Below are positions 10,222-63,587 of a stretch of DNA of 64,000 nt, piece after piece. The notes under the pieces were generated by a model, which was not told where the DNA came from, did not search any database, and saw only the letters and a program-made list of their open reading frames with translations. The first letter of the stretch is position 1. Each line of letters starts with the position of its first letter. Location of the stretch: NCBI GenBank assembly GCA_036873755.1, contig JAVTVY010008156.1, positions 310,001-374,000 of the forward strand, in the 5' to 3' direction. Source of the DNA: Hanleya hanleyi (taxonomy: Eukaryota; Mollusca; Polyplacophora; Lepidopleurida; Hanleyidae). Both the position numbers and the translations under genes were made by a program.

Positions 10222-10328
10222 AGTAGTAAAGAAAACCATTTTAAACCCGCATTTTGCCGGGGGAGATAATTCTTGGTGGCGACAGGTGGCGTTGTTCAGG
10301 CCACGGGGAGGTCAAGTGTACTATAGTT

Positions 10329-10344
10329 CCGCCAGGAGGCGCCA
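10329..10344 (+). promoter_or_regulatory. CTCF-like site near the E1 left end
   Basis: CCGCCAGGAGGCGCCA matches the textbook CTCF core CCACCAGGGGGCGCCA at 14 of 16 positions. The mirrored copy is at 20377-20392 in the right arm. Binding is an inference only. Confidence 0.3.
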
Positions 10345-10493
10345 CCAGCTCACGAGACCAAAAACTACCTCCAACACGAGAGGGCTCCTTGAGACCAAAA
10401 ATTACCTTCAACACAGAAGAGTTCCATGCTGCATGGTTCCATTGGGACGAGTGAGGCTCTCTTCAGTCATGTCATGGGTGTTTTCACAGAATA

Positions 10494-10562
10494 AATAAAT
10501 AAATAAATAATAAATAAATAAATAAATAAATAAATAAACAAATAATAAATAAATAAATAAAA
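10494..10562 (+). repeat. (AAAT)n microsatellite, E1 left arm
   Basis: AATAAATAAATAAATAAAT run; the inverted counterpart is at about 20188-20236. Confidence 0.9.
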
Positions 10563-10599
10563 AGCGGAACACGGACTCGTACAATATACAATATACGGG

Positions 10600-11115
10600 G
10601 AAATGCCTGTATGGGTATATCCCATACTCGCTTTATGGGGGAGGCGTGGTCAAATTTTTTTGTGGGCTTTACTATGGCTTGTGGGGTCCCGTTTTTCTCG
10701 TCTCGCCAAGAAAATGACAATGGGAAGGGTTTCGGAGCGAATCGGTGAAATTTTTGGGAAAAGTCACCGAGGTCTGTATATAGGCTCATACTGGCTATAT
10801 GGGGGGGAGGGGTGGTCAATTTTTTTTGTGGGCTTTGCTATGGGTTGTGGGGTCTCGTTTTTCTCGTCTCGCCAAGAAAATCACAATGGGAAGGGTCCCA
10901 GAGCGAATCGGTGAATTTTGTGGGAAAAGTCACCGAGGTCTGTATATAGGCCTATATGCTGGCTATGGGGGGTATGGGTCCATCCCGGAAATTCACACAC
11001 GTTCATTGTGATATGGGTTGTTTGGATTTGTTTTTCACGTCTCGTCATTTAGAACACGATGGAAAGGGTCCCGGAGCGAAACGGTGAAATTTTTGGAAAA
11101 AGTTCACCGAGGCCT
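10600..11115 (+). repeat. ~165-bp tandem repeats, E1 left arm (about 3 units)
   Basis: Units contain 'TTTTTCTCGTCTCGCCAAGAAAAT', 'CGGAGCGAATCGGTGAAATTTTTGG' and 'AGTCACCGAGGTCTGTATATAGGC'. The right arm has about five units (19300-20130), so copy number changed in one arm after the palindrome formed. Confidence 0.8.
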
Positions 11116-11499
11116 GGGTAGGCCCATAGGCCTATACTGCATGGCTATGGGGGTATAGGCCCATACGCGGTGGACGTTTTGGGGTCTAGGTGAGCCCCTA
11201 ATGATCCTATGATGTCGTATGAGGTCTTATTTTGAAGCTCTCGTGGAGGAGCATCCCACTGGACTAATGGTTCGTCCGTGTTCAATAGTCTGCGCATGCG
11301 CAGTCTGGCCGTAGTATACAAAGCAGGCATTTTGGGGGGTATGTGGGTGTGTGTTTGGGATAGAGATGGGACGCTATGGGTCCCAATGGGTCGTGGAAGG
11401 TGTCAAAGTGAAGCTTGTATGGGGTAGAGTCAGAATGGTGTGTTTTTAAATGCAAGTCGCGTCAATCTGCGAATGCGCAGTTGGTTGTAGTAAGTAAAG

Positions 11500-12460
11500 T
11501 GGCCATTTTGGGGGTGCGTGGAGGTGTGTTTGGGGTAGAGAGGGACCATCCTTGGTCCGAATGCGTCCTGGGAGGTGTCATTTTGTAGCTCTCGGGGTGT
11601 ACATCTCCTTTTGAGGGATGTTCGCTTCATCTGTGACGTCATCGGTGACGTCATCAGTACGAGTAGTAGCGAAAGTGGGCATTTTAGGGAAGTGCAGGAA
11701 GGTATTTGTGGTAGAGAGGGAAAATCCTTGGTCCGATTGTGTGGTGGGAGGTCTCATTTTGTAGCTCTCGGGGTGTAGACCCCGATTTGAGGGATGTTCG
11801 CGTCATCTGCGACGTCATCGGTGACGTCATCAGTACGAGTAGTAGCGAAAGTGGGCATTTTAGGGAAGTGCAGGAAGGTATTTTGGGTAGAGAGGGACCA
11901 TCCTTGGTCCGATTGTGTCGTGGGAGGTGTCATTTTGTAGCTCTCGGGGTGTACAGCCCCATTTGAGGGATGTTTCCGTTATCTGTGACGTCATCGGTGA
12001 CGTCATCAGTACGAGTAGTAGCGAAAGTGGGAATTTTAGGGCAGTGAAGGAAGGTATTTGGGGTAGAGAGGGACCATCCTTCGTCCGAATGCGTCGTGGG
12101 AGGTGTCATCTTGTAGCTTTCATGGTGTACATCCCCATTTGGGGGATGTTCGCGTCATCTGTGACGTCATCGGTGACGTCATCAGTACGAGTAGTAGCGA
12201 AAGTGGACAATTTGGGGCAGTGAAGGAAGGTATTTGGGGTAGAGAGGGACCATCCTTGGTCCGAATGCGTCCTGGGAGGTGTCATGTTGTAGCTCTCGGG
12301 GTATAGACCCCGATTTGAGGGATATCCACAGCATATGTGACGTCATTGGTGACGTCATCAGTACGAGTAGTAGCGAAAGCGGGCATTTTTTAGCAGTGAA
12401 GGATGGTATTTGGTGTAGAGAGGGACCATCCGCGGTGCGAATGCGTCGTGTGAGGTGTCA
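11500..12460 (+). repeat. ~175-bp CRE-rich tandem repeats, E1 left arm (about 5-6 units)
   Basis: Each unit reads GATGTTCGCGTCATCTG, then two TGACGTCA-type sites nine bases apart, CAGTACGAGTAGTAGCGAAA, GTGGGCATTTTAGGG, GAGAGGGACCATCCTTGG and GTGTCATTTTGTAGCTCTC. The same unit, diverged, is present in E2 (53960-54570, 55850-56310, 58060-58680), which ties the two elements together. The AGTAGTAGC inside each unit resembles the element terminus. Short methionine-rich frames here are shadows. Confidence 0.85.
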
Positions 12461-13016
12461 TATTGTAGCAACGCCCACCAACGCCAAGCTTAATGCTTCA
12501 ACGCCCTGGTGAAATAGCTCAGAAGCTCTGATATTCCATGGAATTGTCACTAATTCTTCGAAATGCAGTGACGCCCGTCAACGCCCGTCGTTACACCTTA
12601 ACACTCTAACTTAACGCCATGATATAGGCCGGAGAGAGAACAACAACAACAACAAGGATGAGCCATGAGAGAACAACAACAACAAGAAGTTTTTTTCATA
12701 TAGTTTATTCTCCCCAATGTTACATCATACCCAAGCTGGGGGAGCCGCGTGGGTATGTTTACAATACAAATATCCTTTTGTCCAATCAGAGGCCGCCATT
12801 TGCATCTGTCATATTCGTTCCTGTCCGTTAGATGTATTATCGGCTGTTCTTGTCCAATCAGAAGTCGCCATTTCAGAAAGTTTCATCTTCGGCCCTGTTC
12901 GCTCTGAACCGTTTGTTCTAACCGTCGTCAGGGAGGCCAGGATACCGTTGAGGCAACATATCCTCAAATAGTTGTTTGCGCCTTCTGAGTATTTATCAGT
13001 GCATGGGTGAATACAT

Positions 13017-13940
13017 TCACCAGAAGGGAAAATTCCGTAATTTGGTCACGAAGAACGTAACATTGGTCACCCTCTCTGCGACCCACTTGGTGTTGGGGCG
13101 CTGTTCATAGGCCCATTGCAAGACATCCAATTGGTCCACTTGGTCCAGCACGGGATTTAGCAATGTCCGGTTAATGATGGTAAACGGTTGGTCAAATACC
13201 CGGATGTTACTGCTCGGATAAAAGTATCGGACTTGATCTGTCTCCTTATGCTGCAGTACATAACCAAACGCCAGATTCAATTTGAAGGACGTAGCTTGGT
13301 CATTGAAGATGGCTTCCACTTAGCTGCGTAGACGGGCGAGGTTGGTCAGTCGGAAATTGTAGATATCTTGAATAGGGCGATGACGGTGGAAACAGTGCCG
13401 TATCATGGGCCAATGGCGCTGATAGATGTCACTCACTGGATGGGCGTCCTGTAAGAGATCGCTGGGAACATCCACCGCATCTTCCAGAAAATGTTCGTTG
13501 TTGTCAGGCGTGTGACTGGGAACAGGAATGCTAGGGACCGGCTGGATATCTAGGCTCTTCTGAACTGTGGGTATAGACGGGCTCTCCGTGATCGCATCAC
13601 CAGTGGCATTCGTCTCTACGGGCTCATCTTCACTAGGTCCGACCCTCCTGGGTGCCTCTTTAGTGGGAAGTTGTCGCTCATACCGTGGTGACGCACCGTG
13701 AATCAAACGTTGGTGCTGTCTTAACTGACTGGGTCGTTTGAAGAGTTGACCGCATTCATTACATTGTTCCTTCGCGCCCTCGTGGAGTGAGCGTTCGTGG
13801 CGCAGTAAAGCATCTTCCCGATTAAATGACCGTGCGCAGGTTATACAAGTATATAGTGTACCGTTGTGGATGGAGGACTCGTGTCGTCGCAAATCTTCTG
13901 GGCGACTAAACAGCTTCTGGCAAGTTGTGCAAGAGAACAT
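13017..13940 (-). pseudogene. C2H2 zinc-finger gene, E1 left copy, one nonsense codon
   Basis: From the ATG at 13940 (the longer frame starts with GTG, so I reject it) 308 codons run to a stop at 13017, interrupted by one TAA at 13320-13322 where the right copy has TAC. Three C2H2 fingers sit at residues 4-25, 32-53 and 60-81 (C-x2-C-x12-H-x4-H), all ligands intact. Then comes an acidic, Pro/Ser-rich linker (about 85-180) and a C-terminal block of about 120 residues with FKLNLAFGYVLQH, RYFYPSSNIRVF and QRPNTKW. From memory, similar C-terminal blocks occur in uncharacterised invertebrate zinc-finger proteins, often in repeat-rich DNA; I cannot verify that. The TATA is degenerate here (TATTAAAG). 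Likely DNA-binding; the role in the element is unknown. Confidence 0.75.
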
Positions 13941-13989
13941 ATCGGCTGTGGATCTGGAAATGATGAATGCCGTAAAAATTCCCACTTTA

Positions 13990-14350
13990 ATACGTTTTTC
14001 CGTGACATTCGTGTCTTTTCGGCAACCTCCGTGTCTCTTCGGTCACCTCCGTGTCTTTTCGCTGACGTCCGTGACTCTTCGGGCACCTCCGTGTCTCTTT
14101 GGTAACCTCCGTGACATCTTCGGTCACCTCCGTGTCTCTTCGGTGACCTGCGTGACATCTTCGGTCACCTCCGTGTCTCTTCGGTGACCTCCGTGACATC
14201 TTCGGTCACCTACGTGTCTCTTCGGGCACCTCCGTGACATCTTCGGTCACCTCCGTGTCTCTTCGCTGACCTCCGTGACATCTTCGGTCACCTCCGTGTC
14301 TCTTCGGTGACCTCCGTGACATCTTCGGTCACCTCCGTGTCTCTTCGGTC
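13990..14350 (+). repeat. ~20-bp tandem array upstream of the zinc-finger gene, E1 left arm
   Basis: Alternating 'TCTTCGGTCACCTCCGTG' and 'TCTCTTCGGTGACCTCCGTG' units, each containing a GGTCACC/GGTGACC half-palindrome. The mirror is at 16025-16450. It lies in the promoter-proximal region of the zinc-finger gene. Confidence 0.85.
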
Positions 14351-14354
14351 ATCT

Positions 14355-14560
14355 TCGTAACTACCCGGCTGTTCCCGTGTAAACCCCGATGTACCCGTAT
14401 GGAACACACAGCTAAAGGACCCGGATAGAAGTACCTGGATGTAGGCGCGGACGTCATTGACAAGAGCCCGGATGTACAAGAACCCGGATGTACCCGGATG
14501 TAAAAGTTACCGGATGTAAAAGTGCCCGGATGTTTACGAATGTTCCACCATTCCGGACTT
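14355..14560 (+). repeat. Short ACCCGGATGTA repeats, E1 left arm
   Basis: ACCCGGATGTA and variants recur about eight times; the mirrored block is at about 15855-16020. No gene. Confidence 0.6.
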
Positions 14561-14604
14561 CTATCAGGTCCATGTCCAGAAGCTCTCATGTTCTGCATGT
14601 GAAT

Positions 14605-14720
14605 AGTCGTATTGTGTGTGTATGCATGTGTGTATGCGTCTGCGTGTGTGTTGGTGTTTGTGTGTATGCAGCATGTGTGTGTGTATATACGCCTGTGTGT
14701 AGGTGTGTGTCTCACCGTGT
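14605..14720 (+). repeat. (TG)n-rich tract, E1 left arm
   Basis: GTGTGTATGCGTCTGCGTGTGTG-like low complexity; inverted as a CA-rich tract at about 15175-15271 and 15733-15778, split there by an inserted MITE. Confidence 0.85.
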
Positions 14721-14904
14721 GCCATGATACAGACAGATGAGAGGAAGAGTGATCTACACGTTCACAAGTGTTCCTATAGTCCTGAAGTAACCTTTGACCC
14801 CTGCGCTGCTCGGAAGTGCGGTCATCGTACGCAGGCGCACACACACACACATACCTGGTGCACCCTGTACCTTATAGACCGTAGGGCATAGGGTACACCA
14901 GTAC

Positions 14905-14985
14905 AGGAACTGACCTTGACCCTGCGCGCAACTTTTATCCGGTATTGTTAGCGCGCCCAGGGGTCAAAGGTCAGTTCCTGGTGCC
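14905..14985. promoter_or_regulatory. E1 palindrome centre and shared core module
   Basis: The two arms meet here: GGAACTGACC plus TTGACCCTGCGCGC on the left, and the inverse GCGCGCCCAGGGGTCAAAGG plus TCAGTTCC on the right, with a loop of about 20 bp (14930-14950) containing TTATCCGGTATTG. The right half holds a perfect nuclear-receptor DR1 (AGGGGTCAAAGGTCA). The same module recurs near the E2 centre and in E3. It may be a promoter or an end-processing or replication site; that is inference. Confidence 0.55.
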
Positions 14986-15271
14986 CTGGTGTACCCTATG
15001 CCCTACGGTCTATAAGGTTCAGGGTACACCAGGTATGTGTGTGCGTGTGCGCCTGCGTACGATGACGGCACTTCCGAGCAGCGCAGGGGTTAAAGGTTAC
15101 TTCAGGACTATAGGAACACTTGTGAACGTGTAGATCTTTCTTCCTCTCATCTGTCTGTATCATGGCACACGGTGAGACACACACCTACACACAGACGTAT
15201 ATACACACACACATGCTGCATACACACACACGCACACACACACACACACACGCACACACACACGCACATAT
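14951..15271. repeat. Inner right arm of E1
   Basis: Mirror of about 14590-14930: 'GGTGTACCCTATGCCCTACG', 'AGGTTACTTCAGGACTATAGG' and 'GTATCATGGCACACGGTGAG', then the CA-rich tract. No coding sense. Confidence 0.8.
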
Positions 15272-15732
15272 GTTGACGAAAGGTGCATAGTGGGGACATC
15301 CGTACACAACCATACAAGTGGGGACTTCTTTATTTTTTGGCTATTCAAGCAACCTGTTGCTGGTTTGTGTTGTGAACAGCCTCGGGATCTCCACGACACG
15401 TTCAATCCAGTTCAAATTTGCACAGCACCTGAAATAACCGAATCCGTATTTCCACCCCACAAGTGGGGACACATGAAACATACCGGCAAAGTGGGGACAC
15501 CCAGTCAAACACACGTTTCTAATTTCAAACACACCCGCTTGAGTTTTCTCCAGTCAAAATGGGGACATATACGTTATTTTTTTTACCATGGTGTTGTATA
15601 CAAGATCATAAAACGGGCAGCGAAACAGTTTCCCAGTCTTTGTCACACCGGGGACGTCCCCGGTTGGAGGTGTGTCCCCAGTATGAAGGTGTGTATTCAT
15701 ATAAATGTCCCCGCTATACACCTTTCGTAAAC
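15272..15732. mobile_element. 461-bp MITE nested in the E1 right arm
   Basis: Absent from the left arm, where the TG tract is continuous. Ends are 26-bp inverted repeats of the form GTT(G/T)ACGAAAGGTG(C/T)ATAG plus a GGGGAC block. It splits a CA tract, so a duplication cannot be read safely (flanks GCACATAT and GCACACAC suggest 8 bp). The interior repeats GTGGGGACA several times. An internal open frame of 146 codons lacks any signature. Confidence 0.75.
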
Positions 15733-16024
15733 GCACACACACACACGCAGACGCATACACACATGCATACACACACAATATGACTATTCACATGCAGGAC
15801 ATGAGAGCTTCTGGATATGGACCTGATAGAAGTCCGGAATGGTGGAGCATTCGTAAACATCCGAGCTCTTTTTCATCCGGGGACTTTTACGTCCGGGTAC
15901 ATCCGGGTTCTTGTACATCCGGGTTCTTGTCAATGACGTTCGCGCCTACATCCAAGTACTTCTATCCGGGTCCTTTAGCTGTGTGTTCCATACGGGTACA
16001 TCGGGGTTTACACGGGAACAGCCG

Positions 16025-16450
16025 GGTAGTTACGGAGGTGACTGATGAGACACGGAGGTGACCGAAGATGTCACGGAGGTCACCGAAGAAACACGGAGGT
16101 GACCGAAGATGTGACGGAGGTCACCGAAGAGACACGGAGGTGACCGAAGATGTCACGGAGGTGCCCGAAGAGACACGGAGGTGACCGAAGATGTCACGGA
16201 GGTCACCGAAGAGACACGGAGGTGACCGAAGATGTCACGGAGGTGCCCGAAGAGACACGGAGGTTACCGAAGATGTCACGGAGGTCACCGAAGAAACACG
16301 GAGGTGACCGAAGATGTCACGGAGGTTACCGAAGAGACACGGAGGTTACCGAAGAGACACGGAGGTGCCCGAAGAGGCACGGACGTCACCGAAAAGACAC
16401 GGAGGTGACCGAAGAGAGACGGAGGTTGCCGAAAAGACACGAATGTCACG
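16025..16450 (-). repeat. ~20-bp tandem array, E1 right arm
   Basis: Inverted counterpart of 13990-14350: 'GACACGGAGGTGACCGAAGA' and 'TGTCACGGAGGTCACCGAAG' units. There are more units than in the left arm. Confidence 0.85.
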
Positions 16451-16458
16451 GAAAAACG

Positions 16459-16487
16459 TATAAAAGTGGGAATTTTTACGGCATTCA
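16459..16487 (+). promoter_or_regulatory. TATA box and CATTCA cap-like motif of the zinc-finger gene
   Basis: TATAAAAG at 16459-16466, then GGCATTCA with ATTCA starting at 16483, 24 nt after the TATA; the ATG follows at 16511. CATTCA matches the classical histone cap consensus PyCATTCPu except for the first base. The left arm has TATTAAAG instead. Confidence 0.6.
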
Positions 16488-16510
16488 TAATTTCCAGATC
16501 CACAGCCGAT

Positions 16511-17434
16511 ATGTTCTCTTGCACAACTTGGCAGAAGCTGTTTACTCGCCCAGAAAATTTGCGACGACACGAGTCCTCCATCCACAACGGTACACTATAT
16601 ACTTGTATAACCTGCGCACGGTCATTTAATCGGGAAGATGCTTTACTGCGCCACGAACGCTCACTCCACGAGGGCGCGAAGGAACAATGTAATGAATGCG
16701 ATCAACTCTTCAAACGACCCAGTCAGTTAAGACAGCACCAACGTTTGATTCACGGTGCGTCACCACGGTATGAGCGACAACTTCCCACTAAAGAGGCACC
16801 CAGGAGGGTCGGACCTAGTGAAGATGAGCCCGTAGAGACGAATGCCACTGGTGATGCGATCACGGAGAGCCCGCCTATACCCACAGTTCAGAAGAGCCTA
16901 GATATCCAGCCGGTCCCTAGCATTTCTGTTCCCAGTCATACGCCTGACAACAACGAACATTTTCTGGAAGATGCGGTGGATGTTCCCAGCGATCTCTTAC
17001 CCGAAGATCATCCAGTGAGTGACATCTATCGGCGCCATTGGCCCATGATACGACACTGTTTCCACCGTCATCGCCCTATTCAAGATATCTACAATTTCCG
17101 ACTGACCAACCACGCCCGTCTACGCAGCTACGTGGAAGCCATCTTCAATGCCCATGCTACGTCCTTCAAATTGAATCTGGCGTTTGATTATGTACTGCAG
17201 CATATGGAGACAGAGCAAGTCCGATACTTTTACCCGAGCAGTAACATCCGGGTACTTGACCAACCGTTTACCATCATTAACCGGACATCGCTAAAGCCCG
17301 TGCTGGACCAAGTGGACCAATTGGATGTCTTGCAATGGGCCTATGAATAGCGCCCCAACACCAAGTGGGTCGTAGAGAGAGTGACCAATGTTCCGTTCTT
17401 CGTGGCCAAATTACAGAATCTTCCCATCGGGTGA
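16511..17434 (+). pseudogene. C2H2 zinc-finger gene, E1 right copy, one nonsense codon and a damaged finger
   Basis: Mirror of the left copy with the same 308-codon span. A TAG at 17348-17350 (CAG in the left copy) ends translation after 279 residues and removes the last 28. The first finger has lost its second cysteine (CTTW where the left has CTTC), so only fingers 2 and 3 should fold. The C-terminal block is otherwise conserved (FKLNLAFDYVLQH, RYFYPSSNIRV). A good TATA box lies upstream. A hairpin GGTGAA-TGTA-TTCACC overlaps and follows the distal stop (about 17430-17445), and an AATAAA is at 17742-17747, so the 3' end could be polyadenylated. Confidence 0.75.
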
Positions 17435-17990
17435 ATGTATTCACCCATGCACTGATAAATACTCAGAAGGCGCAAACAACTATTTGAGGATATGCTGCCT
17501 CAACGGTATCCTGGCCTCCCTGACGACGGTTAGAACAAACGGTTCAGAGCGAACAGGGCCGAAGATGAAACTTTCTGAAATGGCGACTTCTGATTGGACA
17601 AGAACAGCCGATAATACATCTAACGGACAGGAACGAATATGACAGATGCAAATGGCGGCCTCTGATTGGACAAAAGGATATTTGTATTGTAAACATACCC
17701 ACGCGGCTCCCCCAGCTTGGGTATGATGTAACGTTGGGGAGAATAAACTATATGAAAAAAACTTCTTGTTGTTGTTCTCTCATGGCTCATCCTTGTTATT
17801 GTTGTTGTTCTCTCTCCGGTCTATATCATGGTGTTATGTTAGAGTGTTAAGGTGTAACGACGGGCGTTGACGGGCGTCACTGCATTTCGAAGAATTAGTG
17901 ACAATTCCATGGAATATCAGAGCTTCTGAGCTATTTCACCAGGGCGTTGAAGCATTAAGCTTGGCGTTGGTGGGCGTTGCTACAATATGA
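17435..17990. other. E1 right arm between the zinc-finger gene and the 175-bp repeats
   Basis: Mirror of about 12465-13016. Contains CCGATAATACATCTAACGG, CAA/GTT triplet runs (about 17765-17815), the AATAAA at 17742-17747 and 'GACGGGCGTTGACGGGCG' repeats. No gene recognised. Confidence 0.6.
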
Positions 17991-18880
17991 CACCTCACAC
18001 GACGCATTCGCACCGCCAAATACCACCCTTCACTGCTAAAAAATGCCCACTTTCGCTACTACTCGTATTGATGACCAATGACGTCACATATGCTGTCGAT
18101 ATCCCTCAAATCGGGGTCTATACCCCGAGAGCTACAACATGACACCTCCCAGGACGCATTCGGACCAAGGATGGTCCCTCTCTACCCCAAATACCTTCCT
18201 TCACTGCCCCAAATTGTCCACTTTCGCTACTACTCGTACTGATGACGTCACCGATGACGTCACAGATGACGCGAACATCCCCCAAATGGGGATGTACACC
18301 ATGAAAGCTACAAGATGACACCTCCCACGACGCATTCGGACGAAGGATGGTCCCTCTCTACCCCAAATACCTTCCTTCACTGCCCTAAAATTCCCACTTT
18401 CGCTACTACTCGTACTGATGACGTCACCGATGACGTCACAGATAACGGGAACATCCCTCAAATGGGGCTGTACACCCCGAGAGCTACAAAATGACACCTC
18501 CCACGACACAATCGGACCAAGGATGGTCCCTCTCTACCCAAAATACCTTCCTGCACTTCCCTAAAATGCCCACTTTCGCTACTACTCGTACTGATGACGT
18601 CACCGATGACGTCGCAGATGACGCGAACATCCCTCAAATCGGGGTCTACACCCCGAGAGCTACAAAATGAGACCTCCCACCACACAATCGGACCAAGGAT
18701 TTTCCCTCTCTACCACAAATACCTTCCTGCACTTCCCTAAAATGCCCACTTTCGCTACTACTCGTACTGATGACGTCACCGATGACGTCACAGATGAAGC
18801 GAACATCCCTCAAAAGGAGATGTACACCCCGAGAGCTACAAAATGACACCTCCCAGGACGCATTCGGACCAAGGATGGTC
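17991..18880 (-). repeat. ~175-bp CRE-rich tandem repeats, E1 right arm
   Basis: Inverted counterpart of 11500-12460 with paired TGACGTCA sites and CGCTACTACTCGTACTGATG. Near 18068 one unit has lost the first CRE. Confidence 0.85.
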
Positions 18881-18899
18881 CCTCTCTACCCCAAACACA

Positions 18900-19300
18900 C
18901 CTCCACGCACCCCCAAAATGGCCACTTTACTTACTACAACCAACTGCGCATGCGCAGATTGACGCGACTTGCATTTAAAAACACACCATTCTGACTCTAC
19001 CCCACACACGCTTCACTTTGACACCTTCCACGACCCATTCGGACCCATAGCGGCCCATCTCTATCCCAAACACACACCCATATACCCCCCCAAAATGCCT
19101 GCTCTCTATACTACGGCCAGACTGCGCATATGCAGACTATTGAAAACGGACGAACCATTAGTCCAGTGGGATGCTCCTCTACGAGAGCTTCAAAATAAGA
19201 CCTCATACGACATCATAGGATCATTAGGGGCTCACCTAGACCCCAAAACGTCCACCCCGTATACCCCCATAGTCATGCAGTATAGGCCTATGGGCCTACC
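18900..19300 (-). repeat. E1 right arm, NRF1-site-bearing stretch
   Basis: Mirror of about 11110-11480. Holds CTGCGCATGCGCAG (NRF1 consensus TGCGCATGCGCA) near 18947 and a diverged version near 19126. Confidence 0.6.
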
Positions 19301-20130
19301 CAGGCCTCGGTGAACTTTTTCCAAAAATTTCACCGTTTCGCTCCGGGACCCTTTCCATCGTGTTCTAAATGACGAGACGTGAAAAACGAATCCAAACAAC
19401 CCATATCACAATGAACGTGTGTGAATTACCCAGGATGGACAAATACCCCCCCTAGCCAGCATATAGGCCTATATACAGACCTCGGTGACTTTTCCCAAAA
19501 ATTTCACCGATTCGCTCCGGGACCCCTCCCATTGTGATTTTCTCGGCGAGACGAGAAAAACGAGACCCCACAACCCATAGCAAAGCTCACAAAAAAAATT
19601 GACCACCCCTCCTTCCATGGATATAGCCAGTATGAGCCTATATACAGACCTCGGTGACTTTTCCCAAAAATTTCACCGATTCGCTCCGAAACCCTTCCCA
19701 TTGTCATTTTCTTGGCGAGACGAGAAAAACGAGACCCCACAAGCCATAGTAAAGCCCACGAAAAAAATTGACCACCCCTCCCCCATATAGCCAGTATGAG
19801 CCTATATACAGACCTCGATGACTTTTCCCAAAAATTTCACCGATTCGCTCCGGGACCCTTCCCATTGTGATTTTCTTGGCGAGACGAGAAAAACGAGACC
19901 CCACAACGCATAGCAAAGCCCACAAAAATATTGACCACCCTTCCCCCCATATAGCCAGTATGAGCCTATATACAGACCTCGGTGACTTTTCCCAAAAATT
20001 TCACCGATTTGCTCCGAAAGCCTTCCCATTGTCATTTTCTTGGCGAGACGAGAAAAACGAGACCCCACAAGCCATAGCAAAGCCCACAAAAAAATTGACC
20101 ACCCCTCCCCCCATAAAGCGAGTATGGGAT
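19300..20130 (-). repeat. ~165-bp tandem repeats, E1 right arm (about 5 units)
   Basis: Inverted counterpart of 10600-11115: 'CACCGATTCGCTCCGGGACC', 'TTCTTGGCGAGACGAGAAAAACG' and 'TATATACAGACCTCGGTGAC'. Open frames here are repeat artefacts. Confidence 0.8.
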
Positions 20131-53870: not shown

Positions 53871-53886
53871 TGTCCTTTTCAGGACA
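53871..53886 (+). terminator. Histone-type 3' stem-loop, RING gene 2 left
   Basis: TGTCCT-TTTC-AGGACA: 6-bp stem with the canonical TTTC loop, preceded by an A run, 27 nt after the stop codon. The base pair at the foot is T-A rather than G-C. Confidence 0.65.
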
Positions 53887-53896
53887 ATTATCTTTT

Positions 53897-53905
53897 CCGA
53901 AAGAG
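53897..53905 (+). terminator. Histone downstream element-like CCGAAAGAG, RING gene 2 left
   Basis: TCTTTTCCGAAAGAGAACTTC, 10 nt after the stem-loop; the same nonamer as after RING gene 1. Confidence 0.6.
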
Positions 53906-53959
53906 AACTTCTAATCACGCACAAAATTAAAAACGAAATCCCCACACCTTATAACCATG

Positions 53960-54570
53960 CAAGTCGCGTCAATCTGCGCAGGCGCAGTTGGTTGTAGTAA
54001 GTAAAGTGGCCATTTTCGGGCAGTACATGAAGGTATTTGGGATCGAGATGGGCTATTCACGGTTCAGGCCGTCCTGGAAGGTGTCATCTTGCTAGTTCTC
54101 CGGGAATTGTACATTCCGATTTGAGGGATGTTCGCGTCATCTGTGACATCATCGGTGACGTCATCGGTACGAGTAGTAGCGAAAGTGGACATTTTCGGGC
54201 AGTACATGAAGGTATTTGGGATCGAGATGGGCTATTCACGGTTCCGAATGCGTCCTGGAAGGTGTCATCTTGTAGTTCTCGGGGTGTACATTCCGATTTG
54301 AGGGATGTTCGCTATTCATCTGTGACGTCATCGGTACAGTAGTAGCGAAAGTGGACATTTTCGGGCAGTACATGAAGGTATTTGGGGTCGAGATGGGCTA
54401 TTCACGGTTCGAATGCGTCCTGGAAGGTGTCATCTTGTAGTTCTCAGGTGTACATTCCGATTTGAGGGATGTTCGCGTCATCTGTGACGTCATCGGTGAC
54501 GTCATCGGTACGAGTAGTAGCGAAAGTGGACATTTTTCGGGCAGTACATATGAAGGTATTTGGGGTCGAG
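53960..54570 (+). repeat. ~175-bp CRE-rich repeats, E2 left arm
   Basis: About 3.5 units: GATGTTCGCGTCATCTGTGA, paired TGACGTCATCGG, ACGAGTAGTAGCGAAAGTGG, ACATTTTCGGGCAGTACATG, 'GGTGTCATCTTGTAGTTCTC'. Homologous to the E1 repeats at 11500-12460. Confidence 0.85.
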
Positions 54571-54571
54571 A

Positions 54572-55661
54572 GTCACACTTGCCGTATACATGTAGATGTA
54601 TGTCACACTTGCCGTATACATGTAGATGTATGTCACACTTGCCGTATACATGTAGATGTATGTCACACTTGCCGTATACATGTAGATGTATGTCACACTT
54701 GCTGTATACATGTAGATGTATGTCACACTTGCTGTATACATGTAGATGTATGTCACACTTGCTGTATACATGTAGATGTATGTCACACTTGCCGTATACA
54801 TGTACGTCACACTTGCCGTATACATGTTGATGTATCACACTTGCCGTATACATGTACACGTCACACTTGCCGTATACATGTAGATGTATGTCACACTTGC
54901 CGTATACATGTACGTCACACTTGCCGTATACATGTAGATGTATGTCACCTGCCGTATACATGTAGATGTATGTCACACTTGCCGCATACATGTAGATGTA
55001 TGTCACACTTGCCGTATACATGTAGATGTATGCCACACTTGCCGTATACATGTAGATGTATGTCACACTTGCTGTATACATGTAGATGTATGTCACACTT
55101 GCCGTATACATGTAGATGTATGTCACACTTGCCGTATACATGTAGATGTGTCACACTTGCCGTATACATGCAGATGTATGTCACACTTGCCGTATACATG
55201 TAGATGTATTATGTATGTCACACTTGACGTATACATGTAGATGTATGTCACACTTGCCGTATACATGTAGATGTATGATGTATGTCACACTTGCCGTATA
55301 CATGTAGATGTATGTCACACTTGCCGTATACATGTAGATGTATGTCACACTTGCCGTATACATGTAGATGTATGTCACACTTGCTGTATACATGTAGATG
55401 TATGATGTATGTCAAACTTGCCGTATACATGTAGATGTATGTCACACTTGCTGTATACATGTAGATGTATGTCACACTTGCCGTATACATGTAGATGTAT
55501 GTCACACTTGTCGTATACATGTAGATGTATGTCACACTTGCCGTATACATGTAGATGTATGTCACACTTGCCGTATACATGTAGATGTATGTCACACTTG
55601 CCGTATACATGTAGATGTATGTCACACTTGCCGTATACATGTAGATGTATGTCACACTTGC
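54572..55661 (+). repeat. 30-bp satellite, E2 left arm (about 36 units)
   Basis: Unit TGTCACACTTGCCGTATACA plus TGTAGATGTA. A few units are shortened or carry an extra ATGTATG. Thirty is a multiple of three, so long stop-free frames occur on both strands; they are repeat artefacts. Confidence 0.97.
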
Positions 55662-56504
55662 CTTGGGGTCGAGATGGATCCGCCATCTTGGATATGTCCC
55701 ATAATGCGCCGGGTCAAAATACTCGCTTCTGATTGGACGAGAGCTCTGTGACGGATTTTAAATACTCGCTTCTGTTTGGTGTACGTCGCTAAAGGTGACC
55801 GGAACTGACCTTTGACCCCGGCGCGCAAAGGTTTCCACCGCACCGCGGCAAGTGTGACTCTCGACCCCAAATACCTTCATGTACTGCCCGAAAATGTCCA
55901 CTTTCGCTACTACTCGTACCGATGACGTCACCGATGACGTCACAGATGACGCGAACATCCCTCAAATCGGAATGTACACTCCGAGAACTACAAGATGACA
56001 CCTTCCAGGACGCATTTGAACCGTGAGTAGCCCATCTCGACCCCAAATACCTTCATGTACCGCCCGAAAATGTCCACTTTCGCTACTACTCGTACCGATG
56101 ACGTCACCGATGACGTCACAGATGACGCGAACATCCCTCAAATCGGAATGTACACCCCGAGAACTACAAGATGACACCTTCCAGGACGCATTCGAACCGT
56201 GAATAGCCCATCTCGATCCCAAATACCTTCATGTACTGCCCGAAAATGTCCACTTTCGCTACTACTCGTCCCGATGACGTCACCGATGACGTCACAGATG
56301 ACGCGAACATCCCCCTGCGCGGTGGAAACCTTTACACTGCGCGCGCCGGGGTCAAAGGTCAGTTCCGGTCACCTTTAGCGACGTACACCAAACAGAAGCG
56401 AGTATTTAAAATCCGTCACAGAGCTCTCGTCCAATCAGAAGCGAGTATTTTGACCCGGTGCATTATGGGACATATCCAAAATGGCGGATCCATCTCGACC
56501 CCAA
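55662..56504. repeat. E2 palindrome centre with two inverted core modules
   Basis: Left module about 55670-55850, right module about 56320-56500, inverted: 'GGATCCGCCAT', 'AATACTCGCTTCTGATTGG', 'GAGAGCTCTGTGACGG', GGTGACCGGAACTGACCTTT plus GACCCC and GGCGCGC. Between them lie two and a half further 175-bp repeats (55850-56310), all in one orientation, so the loop is asymmetric. GGAA ETS-like, DR1 (TGACCTTTGACCCC) and GCGCGC elements are shared with E1 and E3. Confidence 0.75.
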
Positions 56505-58063
56505 GGCAAGTGTGACATACATCTACATGTATACGGCAAGTGTGACATACATCTACATGTATACGGCAAGTGTGACATACATCTACATGTATACGGCAAG
56601 TGTGACATACATCTACATGTTACGGCAAGTGTGACATACATCTACATGTATACGGCAAGTGTGACATACATCTACATGTATACGGCAAGTGTGACATACA
56701 TCTACATGTATACGGCAAGTGTGACATACATCTACATGTATACGGCAAGTGTGACATACATCATACATCTACATGTATACAGCAAGTGTGACATACATCT
56801 ACATGTATACGGCAAGTGTGACATACGTCTACATGTATACGGCAAGTGTGACATACATCTACATGTATACGGCAAGTGTGACATACATCTACATGTATAC
56901 AGCAAGTGTGACATACATCTACATGTATACAGCAAGTGTGACATACATCTACATGTATACGGCAAGTGTGACATACATCTACATGTATACAGCAAGTGTG
57001 ACATACATCTACATGTATACAGCAAGTGTGACATACATCTACATGTATACGGCAAGTGTGACATACATCTACATGTATACGGCAAGTGTGACATACATCT
57101 ACATGTATACGGCAAGTGTGACATACATCATACATCTACATGTATACGGCAAGTGTGACATACATCTACATGTATACGGCAAGTGTGACATACATCATAC
57201 ATCTACATGTATACGGCAAGTGTGACATACATCTACATGTATACGGCAAGTGTGACATGCATCTACATGTATACGGCAAGTGTGACATACATCTACATGT
57301 ATACGGCAAGTGTGACATACATCTACATGTATACGGCAAGTGTGACATACAAGTGTGATCTACATGTATACGTCTAGTGTGGCATACATCTACATGTATA
57401 CGGCAAGTGTGACATACATCATACATCTACATGTATACGGCAAGTGTGACATACATCTACATGTATACGGCAAGTGTGACATACATCTACATGTATACGG
57501 CAAGTGTGACATACATCTACATGTATACGGCAAGTGTGACATACATCTATATGTATACGGCAAGTGTGACATACATCTACATGTATACGGCAAGTGTGAC
57601 ATACATCTACATGTATACGGCAAGTGTGACATACATCTACATGTATACGGCAAGTGTGACGTACATGTATACGGCAAGTGTGACATACATCTACATGTAT
57701 ACGGCAAGTGTGACGTACATGTATACGGCAAGTGTGACATACATCAACATGTATACGGCAAGTGTGACGTACATGTATACGGCAAGTGTGACATACATGT
57801 ACATGTATACGGCAAGTGTGACATACATCTACATGTATACGGCAAGTGTGACATACATCTACATGTGTACGGCAAGTGTGACATACATCTACATGTATAC
57901 GGCAAGTGTGACATATATCTACATGTATACGGCAAGTGTGACATACATCTACATGTATACGGCAAGTGTGACATACATCTACATGTATACGGCAAGTGTG
58001 ACATACATCTACATGTATACGGCAAGTGTGACATACATCTACATGTATACGGCAAGTGTGACT
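56505..58063 (-). repeat. 30-bp satellite, E2 right arm (about 51 units)
   Basis: Inverted counterpart of 54572-55661 but about 470 bp longer, showing that satellite length drifts independently in each arm. Confidence 0.97.
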
Positions 58064-58680
58064 CTCGACCCCAAATACCTTCATGTACTGCCCGAAAATG
58101 TCCACTTTCGCTACTACTCGTCCCGATGACGTCACCGATGACGTCACAGATGACGCGAACATCCCTCAAATCGGAATGTACACTCCGAGAACTACAAGAT
58201 GACACCTTCCAGGACGCATTCGAACCGTGAGTAGCCCATCTCCACCCCAAATACCTTCATGTACCGCCCGAAAATGTCCACTTTCGCTACTACTCGTACC
58301 GATGACGTCACCGATGACGTCACAGATGACGCGAACATCCCTCAAATCGGAATGTACACCCCGAGAACTACAAGATGACATCTTCCAGGACGCATTCGAA
58401 CCGTGAATAGCCCATCTCGACCCCAAATACCTTCCATGTACTGCCCGAAAATGGCCACTTTCGCTACTACTCGTACCGATGACGTCACCGATGACGTCAC
58501 AGATGACGCGAACATCCCTCAAATCGGAATGTACACCCCGAGAACTACAAGATGACACCTTTCAGGACGCATTCGAACCGTGAATAGCCCATCTCGATCC
58601 CAAATACCTTCATGTACTGCCCGAAAATGGCCACTTTACTTACTACAACCAACTGCGCCTGCGCAGATTGACGCGACTTG
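58064..58680 (-). repeat. ~175-bp CRE-rich repeats, E2 right arm
   Basis: Inverted counterpart of 53960-54570, with CGATGACGTCACCGATGACG and CGCTACTACTCGTACCGATG. Confidence 0.85.
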
Positions 58681-58734
58681 CATGGTTATAAGGTGTGGGG
58701 ATTTCGTTTTTAATTTTGTGCGTGATTAGAAGTT

Positions 58735-58769
58735 CTCTTTCGGAAAAGATAATTGTCCTGAAAAGGACA
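58735..58769 (-). terminator. Histone-type stem-loop and downstream element, RING gene 2 right
   Basis: Minus strand TGTCCT-TTTC-AGGACA (58769-58754), then CCGAAAGAG (58743-58735). Identical to the left copy. Confidence 0.65.
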
Positions 58770-58796
58770 TTTTTTTTTCTTTTACTATGTAATAAA

Positions 58797-59566
58797 TTAC
58801 ATCGTTGAGGGCATCTTTAGTCGGTGTCTTCTCTCAGCGCACACGGTACAGGTAAGAGGTAACAGTTCACACGGTTGGGGATGATTGGCTTCTGCACAGG
58901 TAGGTATTTGGGCCCGACGATGGATGCAGACTAAACACAATGCCAGATGACCGCAAGGACCAATCGCAAACCGGGCAAATTGGTTAGAACATTCTACACA
59001 GGGTAGAAATAATTGGCTTTGTCGTTCTGTGTTACAGCCCAATGTTGAAGTGGTGATCGCCCAAACATAATGCACCTCATCGTCCATTTTTTGAAGGGGA
59101 GGTCTCCTGTCTCTCTTGCCCCTTGTATCTGTTCTGTCTTGCCTCTTGCGTAGCCGGACATCTTTTCTTTTTTTCTGTACCCGCTTCTTCTGGGTGAAAT
59201 GTTCTCCTCTGTTCTCTGTTGCCTTGGCATCGGGTCTTTGTTCTTCTGTAGCCTGGGTGCTTCCCTCTGTTTCGGGGGGTGCCTCTTGTACCAGTTCGTC
59301 TTGAGCTGGGAGTGATTTCAACATCTTTTCTAACTCGGCGTGTATCTTGTATCAAAACAGGAGTCGACGGCTGGAAAAACATCCGGTATGGTTGAAGTTG
59401 AAGCAGGCTGGTTCCCCGGTGAAGGAGGAAATAATTCTGCCAGGATATCAGTTATCCAAGGTTGGTCATGATCTTCCAAACTTATGATATTCCCGTAGAG
59501 TTGATTTTCATCATGGGTGATGAAGTCGTCCATATCCTTGATTTCAGTGAGCGGTAGTGACTGCAT
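58797..59566 (-). pseudogene. RING-finger protein 2, E2 right copy, one frameshift
   Basis: The N-terminal frame is intact through residue 73 or so, then two extra bases (TA, near 59350) shift it and a stop follows at 59330. The C-terminal part with the basic stretch and RING is open to 58797. The lesion differs from that of the left copy; the left copy reads normally at this point and vice versa. One residue differs near the start of the C-terminal part (DELVQ against DEPVQ). Domains are as in the left copy. Confidence 0.75.
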
Positions 59567-59576
59567 GACTGGGTAC

Positions 59577-59612
59577 TGGTGAATAATTAAAAAAATGCAG
59601 CGCTATTTATAG
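59577..59612 (-). promoter_or_regulatory. TATA box and ATTCACCA motif of RING gene 2, right
   Basis: Mirror of 53031-53066: CTATAAATAG on the minus strand ends at 59603, ATTCACCA near 59584-59577. Confidence 0.7.
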
Positions 59613-60236
59613 GGTAATTCACGCGCACGTCAGCGAGAGAACACTCTAGCTGTGTGCTATATTTTTACGACACTGCCAATATTTGTGTTTCTTTCCCATT
59701 TTAAAAACGACTGTCATTTTTCAATAACTGTCAACGCACCTATATTTTTATGGCAAGATGTACTCAGGCAATTCAATGTATTGTATTTTAAAATTTTAAC
59801 CGTCTAACGCTACACACTACCGCTATTTTATTAATTTTTATTGATTTTAAACCCATAAAAATCGTGTACGGAATCTGAAACACCAGGTATATTGGAAATA
59901 AATTGATTTTCCTGACTAAAAAAACGTGTAGACTCTGAGTGACAGTCGTCTAATAGTTCCATGAAAATTGTGACGGGTTTTATCGAAAAAATAATAAGAA
60001 ATTTTAATGCTTGGGACAAGGGGTACACACAGCACAGTGGGATTTTTGCACTGACTGACACGGGTGAGTGGGGCGGGTTCAAAATGGCGGTCTGTGGATT
60101 GGCCGTCATTTTGTACTGCCAATCACTATACAGTAGGGTCAGCCTATATCTTGCACTCACTGACACCGGTGAGTGGGGTGGGTTAAAAATGGAGGCCTGT
60201 GGATCACGACCATTTTGTACTCACCTTCCCACTAGA
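59613..60236. promoter_or_regulatory. Divergent intergenic region between RING genes, right
   Basis: Mirror of 52407-53030, with the two AAAATGG(C/A)GG array motifs near RING gene 1. Confidence 0.5.
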
Positions 60237-60269
60237 CTATAAATAGCGTATAATTTTGATATTTATTCA
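60237..60269 (+). promoter_or_regulatory. TATA box and ATTCACCA motif of RING gene 1, right
   Basis: CTATAAATAG at 60237-60246, ATTCACCA from about 60265; ATG at 60283. Confidence 0.75.
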
Positions 60270-60282
60270 CCAATACACCATC

Positions 60283-61113
60283 ATGAGTTTTCGAAGACGA
60301 CGTGCTCTGTTTACACATCATCCGACTCGAGATCCGAGAATTGCTAATACAGAAGAACACAGAGAGATCGTTCGCCATGAAGCAGATGGAGGGGGCTTGA
60401 ACATCATCTCCAGTTTTCAGCAAGTGATTGAAAACGAAGCCACGTTAATCAGGACTACCGAAGAACTTGCAGAACAATTGCGGGAAGAGGTGAGAACAGA
60501 AGAGAGTAGCCGGATCCGAAGCCTGAGTGATCAACAGGACCAAAACATACACAGAATGGATGAAAACAACAATGATGTGACGGAAAGTGAGGAAGAAGAC
60601 GGCGACGAGCTACCCTGGCTAAGTACTAGTAGACCTCCAACAACAACCACAATCACACCGCCTGTGTACACTGAAAGTATAAGGACTGAAGACCATACAG
60701 CCGGACTTTCCACCATTGCCGAAACTCCAACAATTTCAGCTGCAGAAACACCACAATCCCCCTGTCGCCACCAAGTAGAGATAATCCAACTCAATGAACA
60801 GATTATCGCCATGCAGAGAGGGATGGATGGGATGGAGACGACGCTGCAAGGAATGGAGGCGCAAATTACCATACTCAAGAAAGAACGCCGTGTCGAAGAG
60901 AAAAAAACACGATGCAGTATCTGTACGGAGGAGGAAAGTTGGTACGCCGTGTTACCTTGTGGCCATCTTTGCCTGTGTAAGGATTGCTGGGTAACCCTGA
61001 CGTGTGAAGGTGCGATGTGTCGATGCATTGATGCCGGAGAGTCCCATCTGAAAGTAAAATGCCCCATATGCAGAAAACATGTGAGGGGCGTGAAGCGAAT
61101 ATACCGCGCCTAA
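60283..61113 (+). CDS. RING-finger protein 1 (E3 ligase-like), E2 right copy
   Basis: 276 residues, open from the ATG at 60283 to TAA. All eight RING zinc ligands are kept. Against the left copy I see V/M and S/A changes in the coiled-coil part (GMETTLQGMEAQ) and G/R after the RING (KHVRGVKR). That both arms keep this frame open while gene 2 is broken in both suggests either selection or simply youth. Function and structure are as described for the left copy. Confidence 0.88.
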   Translation: MSFRRRRALFTHHPTRDPRIANTEEHREIVRHEADGGGLNIISSFQQVIENEATLIRTTEELAEQLREEVRTEESSRIRSLSDQQDQNIHRMDENNNDVTESEEEDGDELPWLSTSRPPTTTTITPPVYTESIRTEDHTAGLSTIAETPTISAAETPQSPCRHQVEIIQLNEQIIAMQRGMDGMETTLQGMEAQITILKKERRVEEKKTRCSICTEEESWYAVLPCGHLCLCKDCWVTLTCEGAMCRCIDAGESHLKVKCPICRKHVRGVKRIYRA

Positions 61114-61136
61114 GTGTGTCCTATCACACTATCAAC

Positions 61137-61172
61137 GGCCCTTTTGAGGGCCAACCCATCTTTCCGAAAGAG
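61137..61172 (+). terminator. Histone-type stem-loop and downstream element, RING gene 1 right
   Basis: GGCCCT-TTTG-AGGGCC at 61137-61152 (23 nt after the stop), CCGAAAGAG at 61164-61172. Confidence 0.7.
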
Positions 61173-62020
61173 AAAACTTCTTTTCTTAAGCACACCCAAC
61201 TAACACCAGCTCCCAGCATCCTTTTTCCCCAAAAAAAATCAAAGAAAACATTTTTTTTACTATTTTTTTCAAATGATTGAAAAAAAGGGGAAACATTGAA
61301 GTGGGGGGACATGGGGAGGGGGGGAGGTAAATGGAATAGCCAAAAAAATTTTTTTTATCATTGAATAAAAAAGGAAAAAAAGATTCATGGAGCCAAAAAA
61401 AATCTTTTTCATTTTATATGTTTTTTTAACAATTAAAAATTGAAATTAAGAAAGGGGAGGGGCAAATTGGAGGGGGGGACAGGGAGTAAGCAAGGTGGAT
61501 GGAATAGCCCCCATTTTTTCTTTAATAATGAACCCATGGGGTCGAGTGAGGTATCAAATTGAAGGTGAAGTGAAGGGGTATGTAATGGGTTGGGTATGGG
61601 ATTGAACTATGGGCATTTTGCGCATGCGCGGTAGCCGAAAGGTATGAAAATAGACGTTTTTGGAGGTAGGAGATAGCCAAAAAAAAATATTTTAAAATGG
61701 ACCAATGGGGTCGAGTGAGGTATCAAATTGAAGGTAAAGTGACGGAGCATCTAATGGGGTGGGTGTGGGGTTGAACTATCGGCCTTCTGCGCATGCGTGG
61801 CGGCCGAAGGTTGTGAAAATAGCCTTTTTGGGGTTAGAGGCGTCCCTAGTGGCCCGATGGAGCCGAGTGAGGTATCAATGTGAAGGTGAGATGAAGGGCC
61901 ATCTGATGGACTGACGTGGGTTGAACTATCAGCATTCTGCGCATGCGCAAGAATGGAAATAGACGTTTTTGGAGCTATTTGACTATTAAAAAAGGAAAAA
62001 AGAATGAACACTAAGCATTT
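61173..62020. other. E2 right arm: A/T-rich DNA and NRF1-site repeats
   Basis: Mirror of 50620-51465. Holds TTTTGCGCATGCGCGGTAGC and related NRF1-type sites. No gene. Confidence 0.6.
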
Positions 62021-62254
62021 TTTTTAATTTTCTACTATTTTTTATTAACACACAATGAACGTATTCACAAGGGCATTGAATTTAATACAATTATATCTGA
62101 GTATTGAATTTTTTAATACAATTAACAGTAAAAAACTCTGTGAATTTTAAATACAATTATACGCTCTCCAGATCAATAAATGTGTATGGTACGGGTGTAG
62201 TCCGTGATACGTACTATTCTGATGGGTTAGTCCAAAAAAAGGGAGCAACAACAA

Positions 62255-62865
62255 CAACACAGATTACAGATCAATCCTTTTATTATGCGTGAACAACATA
62301 GAAATGCATATACTGACCTGTCTGTGGGAGGTTTCCCACAATGGCGTTCACCTTCGCGTCTTTTCGTGTACGTCCGTGTCTTTTCGTTAAAGTCCGTGTA
62401 TCTTCGGTAAAGTCCGTAGGCATTGGGCAAGGAAGCTTTTTCCCGAGACCGAATCACCGCCAGACATGACTGCATCACCGCGGATGAATACATTCTTGCA
62501 CTCACTCACACCACAGGTCGAGTGAGGTATCAAAGTGAAGCTTAGGTGAAGGAGCATCTAATGGACTGGGTGTGGGGTTGACATATCGATAAAAAATGGA
62601 TATGACCTTGAACTGATCACGTGACCTCCCCGTGATGACAAATACCCAGAACCAAGTCAGTACATGCATCCCATAGTCCCAGGTCACGCCCGATTCACGC
62701 AGACCGGAAGTGACGTCATACACCTGCGCACAACCGTGATGGAAAAAACCCAGAACCAAGTCAGTACATGCATTCCATACAGGCAGAATGCAGGCAGGCA
62801 AGCAAGGCAGGGATGCAGGCAGGCAGGCAGGGAGACAGGTGAGGTCAGGTAAGTCAGATTGAATA
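62255..62865 (-). ncRNA. Possible outer transcript of E2 (right arm)
   Basis: Mirror of 49775-50385 with the same TATA-to-AATAAA layout and no clear protein. The octamer is altered here. Confidence 0.3.
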
Positions 62866-62890
62866 CACCCCTTTCCCTATAAATGGACTC

Positions 62891-62898
62891 CTTTTATA
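62891..62898 (-). promoter_or_regulatory. TATA box of the outer E2 unit, right arm
   Basis: CTTTTATA, reverse complement TATAAAAG; mirror of 49741-49748. Confidence 0.5.
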
Positions 62899-62943
62899 TC
62901 CAATTGACCTCATTTGGATATTTTCAAAAGGGTGGACAACAAA

Positions 62944-63475
62944 CAGGCGTGAGTGGGTGGGTGGGTTCAAAATGGCGGCACCTTATTTTACACACACAAC
63001 ACCATAAGCCGCCATTTTGAACCCACCCACCCACTCACCGGTGCAAAAGTCCGCCATTTTGAACCCACCCCATTCACTCCGGTGCACTGATTGACATGTA
63101 GGTGAGTGGGGTGGGTTCAAAATGGCGGACACCACTCACTCCGGTGCACTGATTAACATGGGGGTGAATGTGCACTGATTGACATGTAGGTGAGTGGGGT
63201 GGGTTCAAAATGGCGGACACCACTCACTCCGGTGCACTGATTAACATGGGGGTGAGTGGGGTGGGTTCAAAATGGCGGCACAACTTATTTTACACACACA
63301 ACACCACAAGCCGCCATTTTGAACCCACCCCACTCACCCCCATGTTAATCAGTGCACCGGAATGAGTGGTGTCCGCCATTTTGAACCCACCCCACTCACC
63401 CACATGTCAATCAGTGCACCGTGGGACAACTTAAAGTCCGCCATTTTGAACCCACCCCACTCACATATCACTCAC
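62944..63475. repeat. Subterminal array of GTGGGTTCAAAATGGCGG motifs, E2 right arm
   Basis: Inverted counterpart of 49165-49695, followed by CGCATGCGCACCGCCCC and GCGCATGCGCAG near the end. Confidence 0.9.
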
Positions 63476-63587
63476 GCATGCGCACCGCCCCAATAACCCC
63501 CTCGCTCCGCCCCAAATGACGTCAAAACAGGTTCTCGCGCATGCGCAGTTGAGGGCTACGATATCAATTTACGCTATACATACTACT

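Follow-up and report, generated by a model that had tools for sequence, protein, structure and literature searches.

In the FB and TU foldback elements, the inverted arms are very long and consist of tandem modules, and there is no transposase. To our knowledge, how foldbacks become palindromic, and how they stay so, is unsettled. Another foldback, Tetris, is described as having long arms of tandem modules, no transposase, terminal inverted repeats (TIRs) of up to 1,735 bp, and target site duplications (TSDs) of 8-10 bp; the same report takes these TSDs as a sign of Mutator, where it places most foldbacks, and cites a suggestion that TIRs elongate after the transposase gene is lost (PMC4079207). 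Here, we describe three palindromic elements in a 64,000-nucleotide stretch from the mollusc Hanleya hanleyi (contig JAVTVY010008156.1 of assembly GCA_036873755.1, positions 310,001 to 374,000; we call this whole stretch the window). They likely form a new family.

Other groups of mobile elements are relevant because of the size of their TSDs. Polintons (Mavericks) begin with AG. TSDs of 6 bp are reported for Polintons and for the rve integrases of Polinton-like viruses (PMC10045372, PMC8969392, PMC12220804). IS3EU and GingerRoot elements also have 6-bp TSDs; the termini are given as TA..TA for IS3EU and as mostly TA..TA, occasionally TG..CA, for GingerRoot (PMC10045372). Dada elements make 6-7 bp TSDs and insert into small-RNA genes, and Dada-U6 and Dada-U1 are described as lacking TIRs (PMC3706591).

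Three palindromes and their 6-bp flanks

A first-pass annotation of this DNA had proposed three palindromes that end in AGTAGTA or a diverged form of it and are flanked by 6-bp duplications. By comparing the window with itself (80 of the 420 matches listed) and by aligning the two halves of each element with free ends, we confirmed all three at the proposed coordinates (Table 1). The palindromes are real. We name them E1, E2, and E3 by position, so the E2 and E3 of the first-pass annotation are our E3 and E2, respectively. Between the halves, 4324 of the 4457 ungapped columns match in E1 (133 mismatches), 663 of 759 in E2 (96), and 6726 of 6774 in E3 (48). At E 1e-4, nothing elsewhere in the window matches any of the three elements.

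The tips are AGTAGTAA and AGTAGTAT in E1, AGTAGTATGTATAGCG on both sides of E3, and AGTAGTAGTAT at the right end of E2. AGTAGTA is present in all of these, while the left tip of E2 has decayed to ATTTGTGGTAT. The proposed duplications are also there: exact copies lie directly outside the tips of E1 and E3, and the E2 flanks are equal at 5 of 6 positions. (Random pairs of 6-mers from the window are identical at a frequency of 0.00043, and 5 or 6 positions are equal at a frequency of 0.0058.) So, the duplications at E1 and E3 are much too unlikely to be chance matches, and the flanks of E2 are suggestive. All three elements resemble insertions that carry AGTAGTA tips. A scan of the boundaries (up to 40 bp from the ends, repeats of 4-9 bp, 13 or more of the 20 terminal bases inverted, the 6 best results listed) recovered the exact 6-bp duplications next to the E1 and E3 tips, but for E2 it gave just 4-bp words. 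It also gave self-palindromic words within the arms, which are without meaning.

The window contains other palindromes (25844-28861, 29899-30874, 9447-9755, 36649-36992, and 27977-28106), which have neither AGTAGTA tips nor clean 6-bp duplications. The first two of these inverted repeats have arms of ~440 and ~410 bp (85% and 82%) and other tips. In the palindrome at 25844-28861, the scan gave TAATTA, which lies within the arm and is self-palindromic.

A core hairpin common to all three elements and a repeat common to E1 and E3

From tip to center, E1 consists of a tip module, 164-166-bp repeats, 176-bp repeats, an outward-reading open reading frame (ORF) with C2H2 zinc fingers, 41-bp repeats, and the dyad. 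In E3, 62- and 88-bp repeats are followed inward by 169-bp repeats, a head-to-head pair of RING-like ORFs, 176-bp and then 30-bp repeats, and the dyad. E2 is short and is built of 106-bp repeats. Content that is private to the arms of E1 or E3 is symmetric within its own element.

Besides the core described below, the main match between E1 and E3 lies in the 176-bp repeats (all 14 listed of 78 matches fall there). These are the common repeats that had been put at 175 bp; we measure 176 bp. In windows of 150 bases anchored on AGTAGTA, the units of E1 and E3 are 0.71-0.87 alike, and they have the same orientation relative to the tip in both elements. We noticed post hoc that AGTAGTAGCGAAA within these units resembles the right tip of E1, AGTAGTATAGAAA, in the same orientation. 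E1 and E2 have a common 31-base stretch near the tip (87%).

All three elements also contain the core module that the first-pass annotation had claimed. It is a hairpin of ~70-120 bases, roughly ACCGGAA-TGACC-TTTGACCC-TGCGC, then a loop and the inverse. In E1 and E3, the core is at the dyad (an insert splits it in E3); E2 has two copies, near its ends. When we compared the five pieces in all 10 pairs and both orientations, 19 of 20 comparisons scored above the best of 500 dinucleotide shuffles; the sole failure was between the two halves from E3 in reverse orientation. Many of these comparisons depend on each other, since two of the pairs are mirror copies from the same element and the core itself is a palindrome. 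The 12-base loop, TATCCGGTATTG, is identical in the E1 core and the right core of E2, and the left core of E2 differs at 2 of the 12 positions. Folded as single strands, the three cores without an insert have z scores of -10.5, -8.8, and -8.2, which 0 of 200 shuffles equaled.

How the arms became alike

The repeats within the arms record some of their history. In E1, the five 176-bp units are 97-100% identical to their mirror partners (mean 0.994), while units within an arm have a mean identity of 0.882. Among the 120 possible pairings, only the mirror pairing reaches the observed mean. Since mirror partners are far closer than tandem neighbors, we conclude that the array diverged first and then was copied to the other arm in order, as a block. 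The 176-bp units of E3 are similar to their mirror partners at 0.98, 0.95, and 0.99, with one unit slightly closer to its neighbor (0.96). Both the order of the E1 array and the presence of similar hairpins at two dyads suggest that an entire stretch of arm was copied.

Two long runs of identity between arms also bear on this. First, the arms of E1 are alike in patches, with a 502-bp identical run inside the 176-bp array. When the mismatches were placed at random, a run this long appeared in 0 of 5000 trials (1 of 5000 when the test was repeated), which suggests arm-to-arm conversion. Second, a 1535-bp identical run in E3 spans the 5' parts of the RING ORFs and the stretch between them (p 0.0018 with the 176-bp array included). 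Overall, we read the history of the arms as block copying, plus a later patch of conversion in E1.

Could selection on the ORFs have kept the arms alike instead? We reject purifying selection as the cause. Between the arms, the C2H2 ORF of E1 has 14 nonsynonymous and 5 synonymous differences (0.025 nonsynonymous differences per nonsynonymous site, dN; 0.030 synonymous differences per synonymous site, dS). With these differences, a cysteine lost in one arm, and a stop codon in the other, this ORF looks to be decaying. For the two RING ORFs, we counted 3 and 1 nonsynonymous differences and no synonymous ones, which are too few to judge selection.

A proposed mechanism and its rivals

Our preferred reading is that E1, E2, and E3 are one lineage of non-autonomous foldback DNA transposons that are integrated in trans and whose palindromy is regenerated by snap-back at the core. 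We think that it stands an even chance of being right. First, the tips would be joined to the target by an enzyme that is supplied in trans and makes 6-bp duplications; a Polinton/Maverick-type rve integrase is the likeliest. Second, one strand would fold back at the core hairpin and template its own copying out to the tip. One arm would overwrite the other, so that the palindrome is made and remade, with patches perhaps added later by gene conversion between arms. Genes that were taken up in one arm, such as the RING and C2H2 ORFs, would end up in both because one arm is copied over the other. We place the probable start of copying at the core hairpin because the core is at the dyad of two elements that are otherwise unlike, apart from the 176-bp repeats. 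The core loop of E3 contains an extra copy of the element's own arm, as template switching would leave. If the palindromes are perfect at birth, then the divergence of their arms would be a built-in clock. The insert in the right arm of E1 is missing from the left arm, so it probably arrived after mirroring.

Several observations weigh against this reading. There are just three elements, all from one window, and in E2 the core is subterminal, away from the dyad. The mirror order is clear only in some arrays: in E2, mirror units (0.880) and tandem units (0.861) are not clearly separated (3 of 24 permutations), the 41-bp array of E1 is not discriminating either (0.932 for mirror and 0.914 for tandem), and neither is the 30-bp array of E3. 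Arrays also differ in length between arms, both in E1 (2.0 and 4.0 copies of the 164-166-bp unit; 8.3 and 9.9 copies of the 41-bp unit) and in the 30-bp array of E3. The 1535-bp run in E3 is weak without the 176-bp array (p 0.034), because 15 of the 32 mismatches fall in that array. And gene conversion alone could be the source of the mirror order in E1.

In the first rival, the elements are ordinary foldbacks that are moved by a conventional cut-and-paste transposase. Nothing but gene conversion or post-excision gap repair would maintain the similarity of their long arms, and the core would be one more repeat module. In our view, this is less likely than not. The tandem-module arms and the inverted body, with no transposase found, are as described for Tetris (PMC4079207), and both the identical run in E1, which suggests conversion, and the position of the core in E2 fit this rival. 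But the TSD is 6 bp here, rather than the 8-10 bp given for Tetris, and the same report places most foldbacks in Mutator (PMC4079207). Also, this rival leaves unexplained why a similar core is at the dyad of both large elements when the neighboring arms are unlike.

A bolder version of the snap-back reading is that these are self-mirroring transposons: the core would be a dedicated fold-back origin, and a half molecule with a hairpin end would be copied into a perfect palindrome before each integration. We consider this rather unlikely. If it were true, a gene gained in one arm would be doubled automatically, and arm divergence would date the insertion.

Alternatively, the elements might be snap-back derivatives of real Polintons, each palindrome being one end of an autonomous Polinton that was doubled during protein-primed replication. 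The C2H2 ORF of E1 and P0001, which continues the same frame beyond the left-arm stop, would then be the N-terminal part of a polymerase gene. The 6-bp TSD and the tips fit. P0001 may resemble the N-terminal part of Polinton-type polymerases. Neither P0001 nor the preceding ORF has database support, the predicted fold of P0001 has low confidence (a mean predicted local distance difference test score, pLDDT, of 38.9), and we found no polymerase domain in the left half of E1. We consider this rival improbable. Finally, some read types are known to yield false palindromes, but we reject an assembly or sequencing artefact (a false inverted duplication) as almost certainly wrong: besides indels, 133 substitutions separate the arms of E1 and 48 those of E3, one arm of E1 has a single-copy insert, and the host sequence outside both tips of E1 and E3 carries exact 6-bp duplications.

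Which enzyme integrates the elements?

We scanned the left halves of E1 and E3 in all six frames, and also the ORFs, against Pfam and found no integrase, transposase, polymerase, protease, ATPase, or capsid domain. (The six-frame scans were less sensitive: they missed the second RING, which was seen weakly when the ORF was scanned alone.) As no such domain was found in the frames scanned, we can only guess at the enzyme from the TSD and the tips, which is another point against our preferred reading. The single best candidate is integration in trans by a Polinton-type enzyme, because the 6-bp TSD fits and because IS3EU/GingerRoot and Dada do not match. We hold this with slightly less than even confidence, and as a candidate rather than as membership in that group.

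The first-pass annotation had interpreted the elements as a foldback lineage mobilized by a Polinton-type or Dada-type integrase, with the whole body inverted rather than just the ends. The foldback lineage, the inversion of nearly all of the body, the AGTAGTA tips, and the 6-bp duplications stand, but Dada does not. Dada targets small-RNA genes, and its Dada-U6 and Dada-U1 forms are described without TIRs (PMC3706591). We ruled it out because of the long TIRs here and because searches with ARAGORN and Rfam gave no small-RNA gene at the insertion sites. ARAGORN found no tRNA or tmRNA in the window. The sole Rfam match was a 5S rRNA-like stretch on the minus strand (35662-35775; 40 bits, with a cut-off of 38), which is away from the insertion sites and may be a repeat derived from 5S or the remnant of a gene. 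We also ruled out IS3EU, given AG..CT tips instead of TA..TA.

ORFs carried in the arms

In E3, the RING of the 288-amino-acid (aa) ORF matches BIRC3 among PDB sequences (E 7.6e-7) and is above the cut-off for Pfam's zf-C3HC4_3. The weaker RING of the 215-aa ORF matches it over 25 residues (44%). In shuffles of 51123-54002, the 288-aa frame was longer than the longest frame of all 300 shuffles (maximum 229), and a frame of 215 was reached by 2 of 300. Small indels and a stop codon are found within the first 31 codons of the right copy of the second RING ORF, before its first methionine.

Searches for relatives gave 599 candidates for the right-arm ORF of E1, 952 for the 288-aa RING ORF, and 14 for P0001, of which none gave a score; no relative of P0001 was found in the collections searched. 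For four proteins, NCBIfam gave nothing near its cut-offs. In viral contigs, there was no match for the E1 ORF, P0001, a motif pattern, or the 288-aa RING ORF, and the second RING ORF matched one locus over 15 residues. Elements of 10-14.5 kb with two copies of RING ubiquitin-ligase-like ORFs could spread pieces of genes related to immunity or cell death.

Some short words are common in the elements. In their 26,518 bases, as compared to the 37,482 bases outside, there are 39 and 9 exact copies of TGACGTCA, 10 and 0 of GCGCATGCGC, 10 and 0 of CACTTCCGG, and 21 and 2 of AAAATGGCGG. These words are similar to promoter sites that are ubiquitous in animals. The counts are not independent, because many of the words sit in repeats or in mirrored arms.

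Other features of the window

A dispersed repeat family is present at 21672-22246, 33302-33537, 38002-38330, 42436-42777, and 45623-46192; one copy starts ~20 bp past the right end of E2. An open frame at 31106-32383 (425 aa) has a GH3 domain (E 3.3e-65).

Table 1. Positions of the elements and their parts in the window (a dot marks features given without a strand).
Feature	Position	Strand	Remarks
E1 left target duplication	10216..10221	+	AACGTG; exact 6 bp, directly outside tip
E1 palindromic element	10222..20480	.	arms 97.0% identical
E1 left 176-bp repeat array	11529..12469	+	AGTAGTAGCGAAA within units
E1 P0001	13026..13319	-	98 aa; same frame beyond left-arm stop
E1 left-arm C2H2 ORF	13320..14042	-	three C2H2 zinc fingers; reads outward; ends at a stop absent from right arm
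E1 core hairpin	14904..14980	.	at dyad
E1 right-arm single-copy insert	15272..15732	.	~460 bp; 25-bp inverted ends (22/25); left arm without insert; no clean duplication
E1 right-arm C2H2 ORF copy	16409..17350	+	313 aa; first-finger Cys to Trp; frame runs past left-arm stop position
E1 right 176-bp repeat array	18016..18937	-	mirror order of left array
E1 right target duplication	20481..20486	+	AACGTG; exact 6 bp, directly outside tip
E2 palindromic element	40691..42413	.	arms 87.4% identical; 106-bp repeats; flanks AGCGGA/GGCGGA
E2 left core hairpin	40742..40926	.	72-nt stem, 89%
E2 right core hairpin	42191..42344	.	61-nt stem, 87%
E3 left target duplication	49046..49051	+	TATACT; exact 6 bp, directly outside tip
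E3 palindromic element	49052..63587	.	arms 99.3% identical
E3 left RING ORF	51530..52396	-	288 aa stop to stop; IAP-type RING near C terminus
E3 left second RING-like ORF	53196..53843	+	215 aa; below Pfam curated cut-off
E3 left 176-bp repeat array	54003..54571	+	
E3 left 30-bp repeat array	54572..55662	+	36.4 copies
E3 split core, left half	55790..55845	.	at dyad
E3 extra copy of 30-bp/176-bp junction	55849..56313	-	in core loop; 390/465 ungapped positions match right arm from 58053
E3 split core, right half	56311..56385	.	at dyad
E3 right 30-bp repeat array	56505..58062	-	51.4 copies
E3 right 176-bp repeat array	58063..58637	-	
E3 right copy of second RING-like ORF	58797..59351	-	184 aa after upstream stop
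E3 right copy of 288-aa RING ORF	60247..61113	+	
E3 right target duplication	63588..63593	+	TATACT; exact 6 bp, directly outside tip

Comparison with known systems

How do E1, E2, and E3 compare with described elements? Dada is similar in the size of its duplications (6-7 bp, and 6 bp here) but Dada-U6 and Dada-U1, unlike our elements with their long TIRs, are described without TIRs, and Dada inserts into small-RNA genes (PMC3706591). IS3EU and GingerRoot share the 6-bp duplications, but the tips here are AG..CT (PMC10045372).

AG ends are a feature of both Polintons and our elements. So are 6-bp duplications (in E1 and E3) and long inverted ends, as these are described for Polintons (PMC10045372, PMC8969392). 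But in our elements the body is palindromic, and the scanned frames have no integrase, pPolB, protease, ATPase, or capsid domain. At the level of literature listings, we found nothing that matches palindromic or foldback Polintons or their kin.

The elements are like foldbacks (FB, TU, and Tetris) in architecture: the inverted arms are nearly the whole element, and they are made of tandem modules. Compared to Tetris as described, the TSD is 6 bp instead of 8-10 bp, and E1 and E3 reach 10-14.5 kb, as compared to TIRs of up to 1,735 bp. They also differ from foldbacks in carrying ORFs in both arms and in having similar hairpins at their two dyads.

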